Assembly (NCBI RefSeq): GCF_000826685.1 | Contig: NZ_JROO01000041.1 | Location: 1 to 32,985, forward strand | Length of the DNA: 32,985 bases | DNA from: Streptomonospora alba | Lineage (GTDB): Bacteria > Actinomycetota > Actinomycetes > Streptosporangiales > Streptosporangiaceae | Direction of reading: 5' to 3' | Shown: piece by piece, positions 8,884 to 16,149 of the stretch | How positions within the stretch are numbered: the stretch's first letter is position 1 | Layout of the letters: each line of letters starts with the position of its first letter | The notes under the pieces: generated by a model | Database searches by the model: none | Seen by the model: the letters and a program-made list of their open reading frames with translations, nothing else | What the model was told of the DNA's origin: nothing | Made by a program: the position numbers and the translations under genes

Positions 8884-10311
8884 ATGGCAGAGAACAACCC
8901 CGACCTCCACGGCCCGCCCGACGGCGTCGACGAGGAGACCGAGGTCAAACCCGTGGTCGCCGTAGTCGGGCGGCCCAATGTCGGAAAGTCGTCGCTGGTC
9001 AACCGCATCATCGGCCGCCGCGAGGCGGTCGTCGAGGACGTCCCCGGCGTGACCCGCGACCGCGTCGCCTACGACGCCTCATGGCAGTCGCAGGAGTTCA
9101 CCCTCGTCGACACCGGCGGTTGGGAGACGGGCGTCTCCGGGCTCGCGGGGGTCGTCGCCGGCCAGGCCGAGTTCGCCGCCCGCGCCGCGGACGCGATTCT
9201 GTTCGTCGTCGACGCCACCGTGGGTACCACCGACGCCGACGAGGCGGTCGCCCGTGTGCTGCGCCGCTCCGGCAAACCGGTCGTGCTCGCCGCCAACAAG
9301 GTCGACGGGGAGCTGCAGGAAGCCGACGCCCTGGCGCTGTGGAACCTCGGCATGGGCGAGCCGTTCCCGGTCAGCGCCCTGCACGGGCGCGGCACCGGCG
9401 ACATGCTCGACGCCGTGGCCGCCGTGGTCCCCCAGACTCCCGAGCGCGAGGAGGACGAGGACGAGGACGCTCCGCGCCGGATCGCCCTGGTAGGGCGGCC
9501 CAACGTGGGCAAGTCCAGCCTGCTCAACCGGATCGCCGGCGAGGACCGCGTGGTCGTCGACGCCACGGCGGGCACCACCCGCGACGCCGTCGACGAGATC
9601 GTGGAGCTGGGCGGCAAACCGTGGACCTTCATCGACACCGCGGGCATCCGCCGCCGCTTCCGCGCGCTGCAGGGCGCCGACTACTACGCCACAGTGCGCA
9701 CATCGCAGGCGCTGGACCGCGCCGAGGTGGCCGTGGTCCTGATGGACGTCAGCGAGCCGCTCGCCGAACAGGACATCCGCGTGGTCGAGCAGGTGGTGGA
9801 ATCGGGCCGCGCCCTGGTGCTGGCGTTCAACAAGTGGGACACGCTCGACGACGAGCGGCGCTACTACCTGGAGAAGGAGATCGACCGCCAGCTCTCCCGG
9901 GTCTCCTGGGCGCCGCGCGTCAACATCTCCGCCAGCACCGGCCGCCACGTGGAGCGGCTCGTGCCCGCGCTGGAGACCAGCCTGGCGGGGTGGGACACCC
10001 GCATCTCCACCGGTCGGCTCAACGGCTGGCTCAAGGAGCTGGTGGCTGCCACCCCGCCGCCGGTGCGCGGCGGCAAGCAGCCCAAGATCCTCTTCGCCAC
10101 CCAGGCCGCCGCCCGGCCGCCGCAGTTCGTGCTTTTCACCACGGGCTTTCTGGAGGACAACTACCGCCGCTTCATCGAGCGCCGGCTGCGCGAGGACTTC
10201 GGCTTCCACGGGAGCCCGATCAAGCTGACCATGCGCATCCGCGAGAAGCAGGGCAAGGGCGGGGGCCGCAAGGCCGCCCGAGGCAGCACCCGCCGCGACT
10301 GGCGCCGCTGA
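8884..10311 (+). CDS. der: Ribosome biogenesis GTPase Der (EngA)
   Basis: Der is an essential GTPase in late 50S subunit assembly. The 475-residue protein has the two tandem G domains unique to this family: G1 motifs GRPNVGKSS at 29-37 and again near 204-212, each with DTxG ([18 protein letters not shown]) and NKxD (ANKVDGE, FNKWDTL). A C-terminal KH-like domain ends in a basic tail. An acidic linker EEDEDEDAP separates the G domains. ATG 8884 with GGGAG at 8872-8876 fixes the start; the longer upstream frame does not resemble the family. Confidence 0.97.
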
Positions 10312-10389
10312 CGTCCACCGCGGCCACCTGCACACGCCCGCCTCCACCGCCCACCGCGTCCAGCCCGGTCCGCGTGCTCCCCGGCCCCG

Positions 10390-10450
10390 GTTGATCTTGT
10401 ACCTACGGTCACTGTGAGCGATCACATGTGCCCGTAGGTACAAGATCAAC
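10390..10450. repeat. Long low-GC hairpin downstream of der, REP/MITE-like
   Basis: A perfect 19-bp inverted repeat has arms GTTGATCTTGTACCTACGG (10390-10408) and its complement (10432-10450). After one T-C mismatch the pairing resumes as CAC/GTG, then, past a one-base bulge, TGTGA/TCACA closing a GCGA (GNRA) tetraloop at 10418-10421. In total 27 bp are paired. The arms are only about 47% GC in a region well above 70%, and no T-run follows. It could be the 3' end of der mRNA, but length and composition look more like a dispersed palindromic element. I see no second copy in the window. Confidence 0.8.
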
Positions 10451-10601
10451 GCTGGTCGCGGGGTGCGCAACCGTGTGCACGCGGAACCGGCGGTCGCCGT
10501 CCCGGGGCGGCGGTGCTCCCGTCGTCCCGGTCCTGCCTCGCCGTCTCCGCCTCCCAGCACCGCCGGGCCGATACGCGGACTGTGTGGGGATCTGCGTGAT
10601 C
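10451..10601. other. Intergenic stretch between the der hairpin and the candidate small RNA promoter
   Basis: No gene, RNA or clear repeat is visible here. Open frames crossing it lack start signals and do not read like protein. The whole 619-base gap 10312-10930 holds only the hairpin at 10390-10450 and the structured unit at 10602-10751. Confidence 0.5.
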
Positions 10602-10630
10602 TTGGAGGCGCTTGGATGCTTATGTATTAT
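10602..10630 (+). promoter_or_regulatory. Predicted promoter of the candidate small RNA
   Basis: TTGGAG (10602-10607), a 17-base spacer and TATTAT (10625-10630) lie in an unusually AT-rich patch. The expected start point, 10635-10638, coincides with the first base of the first hairpin. Confidence 0.55.
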
Positions 10631-10634
10631 TTTT

Positions 10635-10751
10635 CTGGGAAGTAATCCCATCATCCCAGCGCTGCGCCCCTTCGAGGGCGCGGTGCGCGGGAGGCGACCC
10701 CAAAGGAGGGGTGGGGTCGCGGGAGGCGCCGCTCAGCGGCGCCTCCCTTTT
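10635..10751 (+). ncRNA. Candidate small structured RNA, about 115 nt, function unknown
   Basis: Four helices follow one another almost without spacers. P1 is CTGGGA (10635-10640) with TCCCAG (10654-10659). P2 is GCGCCC (10664-10669) with GGGCGC (10676-10681), extended by GCGC pairs at 10659-10662 and 10685-10688. P3 is GCGACCCC (10694-10701) with GGGGTCGC (10713-10720), whose loop 10702-10712 displays AAAGGAGG, a perfect match to the anti-Shine-Dalgarno end of 16S rRNA. P4 is a 12-bp terminator stem. GGGAGGCG occurs twice (10689-10696 and 10721-10728), so the terminator's right arm has two possible partners. The promoter upstream and terminator downstream define a free-standing unit. It matches no RNA family that I can recall; an attenuator for the gene at 10931 is the main alternative. 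Confidence 0.55.
10721..10751 (+). terminator. Intrinsic terminator, 12-bp stem and T-run
   Basis: GGGAGGCGCCGC (10721-10732), loop TCA, GCGGCGCCTCCC (10736-10747), then TTTT (10748-10751). The stem is perfect. This is the clearest rho-independent terminator in the window. Confidence 0.85.
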
Positions 10752-10930
10752 CGGTTGCCCTGCCTTCGGCTGCCCCGGCCTCCCCGCCGTCCTCAGCCGA
10801 AGCGCCTCGCGGCGCGGATCGCCCGACACGTCGGTGCCTCGGCGATCCTCGGCGCGCCGTCGGGCGGCTGGCAGACTCGGTGGGAGCGGCACGTCCGCGC
10901 CCCGGCTGTCCCGGCGACTGGAGGAACCCG

Positions 10931-11827
10931 GTGCCCGACTACGGAAACCCCATCCGCTTCGGCGTCTTTCCCTCGCCCGAAGCCTCCGGCCTCGACGAGA
11001 CCCTGGCCATGGCAGACGCCGCCGAGCGCGGCGGGCTCGACCTCATCGGCATCCAGGACCACCCGTACCAGCGCCGCCACCTCGACGCGTGGGCGCTCAT
11101 GGCCACGGTCCTGGCCCGCACCGAGCGCGTCGGCGTCTTCCCCGACGTCGCCAACCTCCCGCTGCGCCAGCCCGCCGTGATGGCCAAGACCGCGGCGAGC
11201 CTGGACGTGATCTCGGGCGGGCGCTTCGAGCTCGGGCTGGGGGCAGGAGCCTTCTGGCAGGCCATCAGCGCGATGGGCGGCCCCTCGCGCACCCCGCCGG
11301 AGGCCGCGGGCGCGCTTGAGGAGGCCGTGGAGGTCGTCAAGCTGATGTGGAGCGACCGCAGCTCCGTGTGCTACGACGGAGACCACTACCGCCTCAGCGG
11401 AGTCAAACCCGGCCCGCAGCCGGTTCATGACATGGGCGTATGGCTGGGCGTCGGCGGGAAGCGCATGCTCGCCGCCGTCGGGCGGCTGGCCGACGGCTGG
11501 GTCCCCTCCAGCGCCTACTTTCCGCCGGAGAAGCTGCCCGCGATGAGCGAGCGCATCGATGCCGCGGCCCGCGACGCCGGCCGCGACCCCGCCCGCATCC
11601 GGCGGATCTACAACGTCATGGGCACCGTCGACGGCAGTGGGGAGGGCGCCCTGCAGGGGCCGCCGCACGCCTGGGTGGAGGAACTCTCCCGGATCGCCGT
11701 CGAGAACGGCATGGACACCTTCGTCTTCGCGCCCGAGGAAGGCGGCGTCGTCCAAGTCGAGCGCTTCGCCGCAGAGGTCGCCCCGGCCGTGCGCGAAGAG
11801 GTCGCCCGCCGGCGGGGACGCGGGTAG
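10931..11827 (+). CDS. LLM class F420-dependent oxidoreductase (luciferase-like)
   Basis: A 298-residue TIM-barrel protein of the bacterial luciferase-like family, which in actinobacteria mostly uses coenzyme F420. Family features in order: IRFGVFPSPEA at the first strand, a helix with ETLAMADAAERGGLDLIGIQDHPYQRR, VGVFPDVANLPLRQPAVMAKTAASLD, and SGGRFELGLGAGAFW, which usually shapes the cofactor phosphate pocket. Later come WLGVGGKRMLAAVGRLADGWVPS and a C-terminal domain ending in REEVARRRGRG. GTG 10931 has GGAGGAA at 10919-10925. The substrate cannot be told from sequence. F420 rather than FMN use is inferred from family knowledge. The next gene is a compact GNAT 76 bases downstream. Confidence 0.85.
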   Translation: MPDYGNPIRFGVFPSPEASGLDETLAMADAAERGGLDLIGIQDHPYQRRHLDAWALMATVLARTERVGVFPDVANLPLRQPAVMAKTAASLDVISGGRFELGLGAGAFWQAISAMGGPSRTPPEAAGALEEAVEVVKLMWSDRSSVCYDGDHYRLSGVKPGPQPVHDMGVWLGVGGKRMLAAVGRLADGWVPSSAYFPPEKLPAMSERIDAAARDAGRDPARIRRIYNVMGTVDGSGEGALQGPPHAWVEELSRIAVENGMDTFVFAPEEGGVVQVERFAAEVAPAVREEVARRRGRG

Positions 11828-14618: not shown

Positions 14619-15071
14619 ATGGGAGCCAGACGGACAGTCGCGACGCTTGCGATCCCGTTCGTCGTGGGACTTGCGGCAGTGGGCCTCTCGGCGGGTCCGG
14701 CCGCCGCGGCGGCCGACGGCCGGCCCTGCGCCTTCACCGGCGACTACCGCACCATGCCCACCGGCAACACCGTCCCGGTGCGCTGGTGCCCGGACTGGTC
14801 GCCCCGCTCCGACGGGCGCATCCCGGTCTACGAGGCGCCCACCGGCGGCTCCGTCGTCGGGTGGATGAACGACACCGGCACGCGCACCAACTGGTACGTG
14901 TGCCAGATCAACGGAGCGCGCCATGACGCAGGGGGGTACTGGAACACCTGGTGGGCCCTGACGATGGCCGACAACGGCCAGTGGGGCTGGGTCAACGAGA
15001 CCTACTTCCGCGGCGGCGGCAACGGCGAGCGCGACGGCGGCCTGCCCGCCGACTGCCCGCCGCTGGACTGA
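14619..15071 (+). CDS. Secreted four-cysteine SH3-like small protein, copy 1
   Basis: 150 residues. A signal peptide runs from MGARRTVATLAIPFVVG to an Ala-rich site ending near AAAADG, so the mature part is about 115 residues. It has four Cys, in RPCAF, RWCPDWSPRSDG, WYVCQ and ADCPP, likely two disulfides outside the cell. The core pattern RIPVYEAPTGGSVVGWMND, then TNWYVCQ, then WWALTMADNGQWGWVNETYF looks like a bacterial SH3-type beta barrel: a V-Y strand, a G-rich turn, and a W-V-N closing strand. ATG 14619 has AGGAGG at 14605-14610. Two paralogues follow in tandem. The function is unknown; binding to the cell wall or to other surface molecules is a guess. Confidence 0.85.
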   Translation: MGARRTVATLAIPFVVGLAAVGLSAGPAAAAADGRPCAFTGDYRTMPTGNTVPVRWCPDWSPRSDGRIPVYEAPTGGSVVGWMNDTGTRTNWYVCQINGARHDAGGYWNTWWALTMADNGQWGWVNETYFRGGGNGERDGGLPADCPPLD

Positions 15072-15084
15072 TGCGACCGACCTC

Positions 15085-15100
15085 CGCCGCATCAGCGGCG
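15085..15100 (+). other. Small hairpin between copies 1 and 2
   Basis: CGCCGC (15085-15090), loop ATCA, GCGGCG (15095-15100), between the stop of copy 1 and the ribosome site AAAGGA (15109-15114) of copy 2. The genes are only 49 bases apart, so it may act as a processing or attenuation element within one transcript. Confidence 0.35.
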
Positions 15101-15120
15101 ACCTTCGGAAAGGACCTTCG

Positions 15121-15567
15121 ATGCGGATCGCCACGTACGCAACGACCCTGATCGCCGCGGCGGGCGCCGCGGCGGGGCTGCTGCTGACCACCGCCCTGCC
15201 GGCGTCGGCCGCCGCCGACGCCCAGCCCTGTGTGAACGCGGGATTCGACCGGCAGCCGCCCGCGTGGAACCCCGCACCCGCGCACTGGTGCCCGGACTGG
15301 TCGCCCCGCTCCGACGGGCGCATCCCGGTCTACTTCAACCCCGACCACACCTCGTCGGTGCGGGGCCATCTGAACCGCACCGGCGACCGGACCAACTGGT
15401 ACATGTGCTGGTTCCCCGGAACCGAACTGCATCTCGGCGGCTACTACAACGACGCCTGGGCCTACACCATGGCCGACAACGGCCAGTGGGGCTATGTGAA
15501 CCAGGTCTACTTCCAGGGCGGCGGCAACAACGAGCACGACCCCGGCCTGCCGCCCTGCCCGTCCTGA
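15121..15567 (+). CDS. Secreted four-cysteine SH3-like small protein, copy 2
   Basis: 148 residues with a signal peptide (MRIATYATTLIAAAGAAAG to about SAAADA). It shares with copy 1 the blocks WCPDWSPRSDGRIPVY, TNWYMCW, YTMADNGQWGYVN and GGGNNE. Four Cys lie at QPCVN, HWCPDW, YMCWF and PPCPS. A run of 49 bases (15285-15333) is identical to 14783-14831 of copy 1, stronger than the protein similarity elsewhere, pointing to recent duplication or gene conversion. ATG 15121 has AAAGGA six bases upstream. Confidence 0.85.
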   Translation: MRIATYATTLIAAAGAAAGLLLTTALPASAAADAQPCVNAGFDRQPPAWNPAPAHWCPDWSPRSDGRIPVYFNPDHTSSVRGHLNRTGDRTNWYMCWFPGTELHLGGYYNDAWAYTMADNGQWGYVNQVYFQGGGNNEHDPGLPPCPS

Positions 15568-15569
15568 CC

Positions 15570-15600
15570 GCGTCCCGCCCGCGTCCCGCCCGCGTCCCGC
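15570..15600 (+). repeat. Tandem repeat, 11-base unit, nearly three copies
   Basis: GCGTCCCGCCC repeats at 15570-15580, 15581-15591 and 15592-15600 (partial). It lies in the 132-base gap between copies 2 and 3. Confidence 0.8.
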
Positions 15601-15699
15601 GCCGGACCGCATGCCGGCCGGCGCGGGCCGGCGGTCGCAGCGCCCTGCTGTTCCTTTCGCGTCCGCTGTGCGCGGGCGCCCCGACGGAGACGAGGAAGT

Positions 15700-16149
15700 A
15701 TGAACGCGCTCGCACGACGACTCGCAAGCGTGGCACTGGGCGCGGCGCTGGTGCCCGCGGCCCTCATGATGACCGCCGCGCCCGCCGCGGCCGCCGACGA
15801 TCAGCCGTGCCGCTTCTTCGAGAAGCGCCAGATCGAAGGCGTGTACTGGAATCTGTACCACTGCCCGGACTGGTCGCCGCGCTCGGACGGCCGGATCCCG
15901 GTCTACAACCGCCCCTACGGCGACTCCGGCGTCGCCGGGTGGATGAACAACACCGGCAACGCCGCGAACTGGTACATCCGCCAACTCCAGTGCGGCGGCT
16001 ATCAGCTGGGCTCCTACAGCAACAACTGGTGGGCCATGACGATGGCCGACAACGGCGAGTGGGGCTGGGTCAACGAGACCTACTTCCGGGGCGGCGGCGA
16101 CAACGAGGCCGACGGCGGCCTGCCGTACGGCGCCGGGCAGTGCACGTGA
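15700..16149 (+). CDS. Secreted four-cysteine SH3-like small protein, copy 3
   Basis: 149 residues with a signal peptide (MNALARRLASVALGAALV to about AAAADD). It keeps CPDWSPRSDGRIPVYNRP, GWMNNTGNAANWYI, WWAMTMADNGEWGWVNETYF and GGGDNEADGGLP. It has four Cys, but the third has shifted: WYIRQLQCGG here versus WYVCQ in copy 1. Its DNA is more diverged than that of copies 1 and 2, so it is the older branch. ATG 15700 is preceded by GGAG (15686-15689) and GAGGAA (15692-15697). Confidence 0.85.
   Translation: MNALARRLASVALGAALVPAALMMTAAPAAAADDQPCRFFEKRQIEGVYWNLYHCPDWSPRSDGRIPVYNRPYGDSGVAGWMNNTGNAANWYIRQLQCGGYQLGSYSNNWWAMTMADNGEWGWVNETYFRGGGDNEADGGLPYGAGQCT

Follow-up and report, generated by a model that had tools for sequence, protein, structure and literature searches.

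A predicted small RNA gene of Streptomonospora with a promoter block in common with the quinone oxidoreductase gene wrbA

The window analyzed here, i.e., the whole stretch of 32,985 nucleotides of Streptomonospora alba DNA, carries an unannotated element between two genes that, like the element itself, are read on the forward strand. The upstream gene (8884..10311) encodes a GTPase that we take to be Der, both from the name given in a preliminary description of this DNA and from its motifs, and it has orthologues in all six Streptomonospora genomes. The downstream gene (10931..11827, with a probable GTG start at 10931) encodes an LLM class (luciferase-like) oxidoreductase (PF00296, E = 2.1e-47), the protein not reaching the NCBIfam cut-offs for any of the F420/LLM subfamilies shown. 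Ahead of this LLM gene lies a separate promoter-like element, GGCAGACTCGG / TGGCAGACTCGG (10870..10880), which is found in all six genomes including G005, and of which we take GGCAGACTCGG to be the −10 region. The region following der also holds a large inverted repeat (10372-10468), with 41-nt arms that are 78% complementary and a perfect inner part around GTTGATCTTGTACCTACGG; the core of this repeat was seen, among 265 loci, only in six overlapping ones of the same place. Farther downstream, at 14619-16149, are three consecutive open reading frames of ~150 aa that by eye are similar to one another and secreted-protein-like, and are apparently tandem paralogues.

The element is predicted to encode a small RNA of about 115 nt (10637..10751), with ends placed from the −10 hexamer and the terminator. 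In the minimum free energy structure this RNA is made up of helix P1 (10637..10649), helix P2 (10654..10692), helix P3 (10694..10720, with the loop AAGGAGGGG at 10703-10711) and an intrinsic terminator (10721..10751), the 12-bp stem of which, GGGAGGCGCCGC/GCGGCGCCTCCC, is perfect (10721-10747) and is followed by TTTT. The fold has an energy of −82.3 kcal/mol vs a dinucleotide-shuffle mean of −55.1 (z = −6.3, with none of 200 shuffles as good), which bears out the three helices and the terminator given in the preliminary description. This terminator is the sole terminator-like site in 10300-10940 (one found, 0.2 expected). The promoter claimed earlier, TTGGAG-17-TATTAT, is present letter for letter, with a −35-like TTGGAG (10602-10607) located 17 nt from the −10 hexamer TATTAT (10625..10630), but TTGGAG makes a poor −35 at best, since a sigma-70 scan of 10300-10940 returned no promoter-like sites, and by eye it is not kept in G004 or G001. 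We take the real promoter signal to be the conserved AT-rich block around TATTAT rather than TTGGAG. The hexamer is kept, as TATYRT in relatives, within a putative promoter/operator block, ATGCTTATGTATTATTTTTCTGGGAAG (10616..10642), that has the consensus ATRC-N4-GYATYRTYTT-N-C-NR-GGAAR and is kept at all five sRNA loci. Across the predicted start lies an imperfect dyad, TTTTC-TG-GGAAG (10631..10642; GGGAAG begins at 10637 by direct reading), which we propose as the core of a MarR-type operator. A second dyad-like sequence, ATRC-N4-GYAT (10616-10627), is located upstream of and overlapping the −10, and is common to the sRNA and wrbA promoters. An ECF sigma promoter was also considered and rejected, as GGAAC-N16-CGTT fits G004 by eye and not the other promoters.

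Five of the six Streptomonospora genomes contain the element between der and the LLM gene, all in the same direction, with a predicted sRNA length of 115-172 nt in relatives. The distance from der is about 40 nt in G001, 305 nt in this genome, roughly 1 kb in G004 and roughly 2 kb in both G002 and G003, and between the terminator and the start of the LLM gene there are from about 120 to about 590 nt. Alignment of the five sequences demonstrated that three blocks are kept, i.e., the promoter/start block of 27 nt, P3 together with its loop, and the terminator, and that P1, P2 and the TTGGAG −35 are not kept across all five. P1 forms a hairpin here, as had been described, and in G001, but G004 pairs otherwise and G002 and G003 are unpaired as P1; all five genomes retain GGGAAG because of its place in the promoter block, and this P1 arm is better explained as promoter/operator DNA. 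At the position of P2, some relatives have a predicted helix with a sequence that is not alignable. In P3, 95% of cells are paired and two of eight pairs are changed on both sides, with the GGAGGGG core of the loop invariant in all five sequences; in the terminator, 100% of cells are paired and one of 12 pairs is changed on both sides. P3 and the terminator together thus have three pairs with changes on both sides, vs 0-1 in slid controls; counts this high are also obtained with 43 of 500 shuffles, and covariation by itself is weak. Three genomes have folds that are much more stable than their shuffles (z = −6.3, −4.8 and −3.0). The RNA of G002 and G003 has 57 additional nucleotides and a different 5′ half, and its full-length fold shows no clear advantage over shuffles (z = −1.5, 18 of 200 as good, and z = −0.8, 42 of 200). 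The central claim of the preliminary description, an unannotated small RNA gene that has a promoter block and a terminator of its own, is thus upheld by the presence of the element at the same locus in five of six genomes, with a few pairing-preserving changes in P3 and the terminator.

The sixth genome, G005, contains der at 95% identity, but is without the sRNA element and without the LLM gene. Its spacer can be aligned with the region that separates the sRNA from the LLM gene, TGGCAGACTCGG included (score 75 vs 45 for the best of 300 shuffles). The sRNA itself does not align (score 20 vs a shuffle mean of 18.6, with 97 of 300 shuffles as high). The sRNA and the LLM gene are therefore absent on both sides of a retained spacer, an arrangement that fits a discrete RNA gene, in what is one case only. 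The retained spacer (L010) now precedes a gene that we name GNAT-like by eye.

Our search of Rfam (4227 families) gave no match in the window at the gathering threshold. A local Rfam search at E up to 10 returned only scores far below the cut-offs; for example, the match to RsmW, a Csr/Rsm-sequestering family, reached 13.5 bits vs a 52-bit cut-off, with an E of 3.7 that is at chance level. Using blastn with 60 genomes, we observe matches in six, these being the five Streptomonospora and G036, the latter by 25 nt only. The sRNA promoter pattern, searched in 341 genomes of the family, identified no sRNA beyond Streptomonospora, and its extra matches all lie before wrbA. A covariance model (R1) was run at 30 der loci (24 outside the genus) with 1.5-kb flanks, where it found no sRNA outside Streptomonospora, with the limit that the scan reached 1.5 kb beyond the match and a copy as distant as those of G002 and G003 would escape it; run on 26 of 80 LLM loci and on the window, it likewise found no further sRNA outside the genus. 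Taken together, blastn, the promoter pattern and R1 at the der and LLM loci suggest, rather than prove, that the sRNA is absent outside Streptomonospora. An origin from the der terminator was considered because R1 matched weakly close to der in other genera (best E 0.0012 and 0.0024), and was rejected, these matches looking by eye like a coding stretch and a der terminator, without the promoter block.

The main clue, which is absent from the preliminary description, is a predicted promoter common to the sRNA and wrbA. A pattern built from the five sRNA promoters alone, ATGCNTNYGTATYRTNTTNNNGGGAAG, was searched in 341 family genomes with up to two mismatches and matched eight, i.e., the five with sRNAs plus G015, G109 and G028, with no matches for the reversed-pattern control. 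All three matches outside the genus are located 51-135 nt upstream of wrbA: the gene in G109 encodes a WrbA-type NAD(P)H:quinone oxidoreductase, which scores above the cut-offs of NF002999 and TIGR01755, and the proteins of G015 and G028 are 87-92% identical to this copy. Streptomonospora itself has a wrbA orthologue in six of six genomes, with the block 48-55 nt upstream; five remoter wrbA-like paralogues of the genus, with 46-56% identity, lack the block at 0-1 mismatch. Allowing 0-1 mismatch, a refined pattern, ATRCNNNNGYATYRTYTTNCNRGGAA, identified 11 sites across the six Streptomonospora genomes, six before wrbA and five before the sRNA, with no third strong site besides these. At 2-3 mismatches it identified four further places, and the reversed control gave four at up to three mismatches. 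As ATRCNNNNGYATYRTYTTNCNRGGAA was derived from both site sets, the unbiased test is the search with the sRNA-only ATGCNTNYGTATYRTNTTNNNGGGAAG. When the motif was searched class-wide, 15 of 394 genomes matched, with all matches outside the family at 2-3 mismatches (two genomes in the control). With the same block before both genes, co-regulation of the sRNA with wrbA appears likely.

The core of the common block is a dyad, TATCTTCC-NN-GGAAG, which is perfect (CTTCC-CG-GGAAG) in G002 and G003 and imperfect in the sRNA promoter of this genome. The short core pattern, at no more than one mismatch, is found in 148 of 341 family genomes vs 28 for the reversed control (hand count). In relatives within the family, which we guess to be Nocardiopsis-like, the dyad is located directly before genes of the marR family (PF12802), wrbA, genes for LigB- and glyoxalase-type dioxygenases, DoxX and nitroreductases, and also before a second MarR gene (marR2). 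DoxX proteins belong to MhqR-type quinone regulons. The marR1 gene starts 44-193 nt after the dyad in 10 loci of relatives, and wrbA has an upstream site in eight genomes outside Streptomonospora. We count 36 of 65 site rows with a query gene within 260 nt, a figure in which two places are counted twice (one positive, one negative) and which is biased, in that 20 regions were hand-chosen (18 positive) and five of the eight query proteins, i.e., marR2 and four enzyme/DoxX types, came from those regions. Among the rows drawn by the tool (L177-L205), six of 33 are positive and 27 are without any tested gene nearby. The operator motif may mark out a putative quinone regulon across the wider family. 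The rows that could belong to it are L206-L225, L095-L097, L168-L170, L186, L190, L197, L198, L204 and L205, with L212 and L224 negative. Two dyads occur in tandem in L206-L208. In the g54 genomes (L178-L182) the sites are of the ATTATCTTGCC type, four of these genomes having two sites 1.2-1.7 kb apart, and in L178, L179 and L181 such sites have similar flanks, with CATCTTACCT before and GGGAATGCTA after.

Using marR1 and marR2 as tblastn queries against 800 kb of Streptomonospora, made up of 600 kb flanking der on either side in G001 and 200 kb ahead of der in G004, we found no orthologue and one distant match (31% over 108 aa); a marR gene near der by synteny was a candidate for which nothing appeared in these 800 kb. 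The nearest solved relative of MarR1 from G146 is 3zpl (E = 1.1e-37), which we take to be SCO3205, with 3zmd presumably AbsC, both MarR regulators of Streptomyces coelicolor. SCO3205 of Streptomyces coelicolor is described as having sites that flank a class III extradiol dioxygenase-like gene, and the dyad in L206-L208 is also beside a dioxygenase gene, although the consensus given in that source, TTnAAnnnTCAA, differs from our dyad (PMC3737563). The closest likeness in gene content and layout is to MhqR of Bacillus subtilis and Staphylococcus aureus, for which the account we cite gives a 9-9 bp inverted repeat, TATCTCGAA-aTCGAaATA, at −6 to +12 (PMC6798810). As there, an inverted-repeat operator beginning TATCT lies over the predicted transcription start; the MhqR/YodB/CatR regulons of Firmicutes are described as containing quinone reductases, nitroreductases and ring-cleavage dioxygenases, and similar gene types bear the dyad in our relatives (PMC6798810). 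The two systems differ in the half-site, which is TATCTTCC (-NN-GGAAG) here and TATCTCGAA in the operator published in that account, in having WrbA here rather than AzoR, and in that the regulon proposed here includes a small RNA. A putative operator common with wrbA is found, and the published MhqR operator sequence is not; we regard the system as one that may work like the MhqR regulon, and do not class it as such. By this analogy, a MarR-type quinone repressor would probably carry out the co-regulation. A literature search pairing MhqR with “small regulatory RNA” found nothing.

Three other explanations of the locus were weighed. The preliminary description had offered the RNA as an attenuator of the oxidoreductase gene, i.e., a conditional 5′ leader in which the quinone-responsive promoter would drive the LLM gene through opening of the terminator under some signal. 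The LLM gene is indeed downstream in the same direction in all five sRNA-bearing genomes, both are missing in G005, and an LLM oxidoreductase would suit a quinone regulon. However, LLM attenuation is less likely because the LLM gene keeps its own conserved promoter-like element, TGGCAGACTCGG, after the terminator; the spacing from the terminator is also variable, and the mutually exclusive pairing that an attenuator needs is not conserved. The two copies of GGGAGGCG, noted earlier as giving the terminator arm two partners, do occur here, but the second partner is full in this genome only (one of five). We consider this reading unlikely. Similarly unlikely is that a real sRNA acts on ribosomes or on a protein, with the P3 loop as a Shine-Dalgarno mimic or a protein-binding hairpin. 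All five loops have a GGAGG core, and the sub-threshold RsmW score would point the same way, but that score is at chance level, and competition for ribosomes through the anti-Shine-Dalgarno, as first suggested, is not favoured: the exact 8-nt complement AAAGGAGG is present in two of five genomes only, and the GGAGGGG extension, conserved in five of five, is not explained by the anti-Shine-Dalgarno. The loop was correctly described as lacking a usable start, as the nearest start codon after GGAGG is a GTG one base away, which is too close for initiation.

The locus could also be a relic, in which a duplicated wrbA-type promoter and a strong terminator are transcribed with no function. A start-site block common to wrbA, the lack of the RNA in G005 and the poor conservation of P2 and the 5′ domain are all consistent with such an origin, but the P3 loop and terminator are kept in five of six genomes amid divergence, with a few paired changes, and we find a relic still less probable than the two readings above. 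A predicted promoter of its own, an intrinsic terminator and conservation in relatives, all seen at the level of sequence, point to an sRNA gene, and we consider it very probable that Streptomonospora has a real one here.

The predicted sRNA has features in common with 6C RNA (RF01066): both are small, structured RNAs of Actinobacteria, and in both a homopolymer-rich loop is conserved. 6C matches are present in six of six Streptomonospora genomes, four of them over the family cut-off. The 6C loops, in contrast, are C-rich (CUCCCCCCC, UCCCCCC), and our sRNA carries a G-rich loop, lies at a different locus and does not match 6C. Titration of 6C was set aside, since any G run would pair with 6C loops. 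Ms1 / 6S-like RNA is likewise a small actinobacterial RNA, from which the sRNA differs in having no Rfam match, and the Ms1 gene presumably lies elsewhere. The genus list given for an Ms1 synteny search includes Streptomonospora (PMC9130861).

We favour, with a probability of roughly 0.6, a free-standing, terminated sRNA that is induced by quinones or electrophiles together with wrbA, and that probably acts in trans via its GGAGGGG loop. Its computed parts are the conservation within the genus, the predicted structure, the motif common with wrbA, and the dyad before genes of quinone-regulon type; transcription, the identity of the repressor, the inducer, action in trans and the targets are what we infer. 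RNA polymerase would start at ~10637, at a site covered by a MarR-type operator, and would stop at the terminator, at 10751. As the same promoter block stands before wrbA, the sRNA and wrbA would be repressed together and released together, with quinones or other electrophilic or phenolic compounds inactivating the repressor, as for MhqR in Bacillus and Staphylococcus. The RNA would be almost wholly folded, exposing the G-rich loop GGAGGGG as its single conserved unpaired part. Most likely this loop would then pair in trans with C-rich stretches of target RNAs, although we put forward such pairing tentatively, and the result would be a post-transcriptional arm added to quinone detoxification. 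A bolder version, in which an MhqR-like regulon for quinone detoxification would for the first time include a small RNA, GGAGGGG is a decoy for C-rich RNAs including 6C, and quinone stress resets a global network of C-rich sRNAs, is highly speculative.

As a bacterial sRNA gene this is an ordinary kind of thing, and what is unusual is its predicted wiring. To our knowledge, a signal has been predicted for few of the small RNAs in less-studied Actinobacteria; in this case, the block in common with wrbA points to a class of inducer (quinones, catechols, diamide) and to a partner gene, wrbA. If the favoured reading is true, the MarR-type quinone response would gain a post-transcriptional arm.
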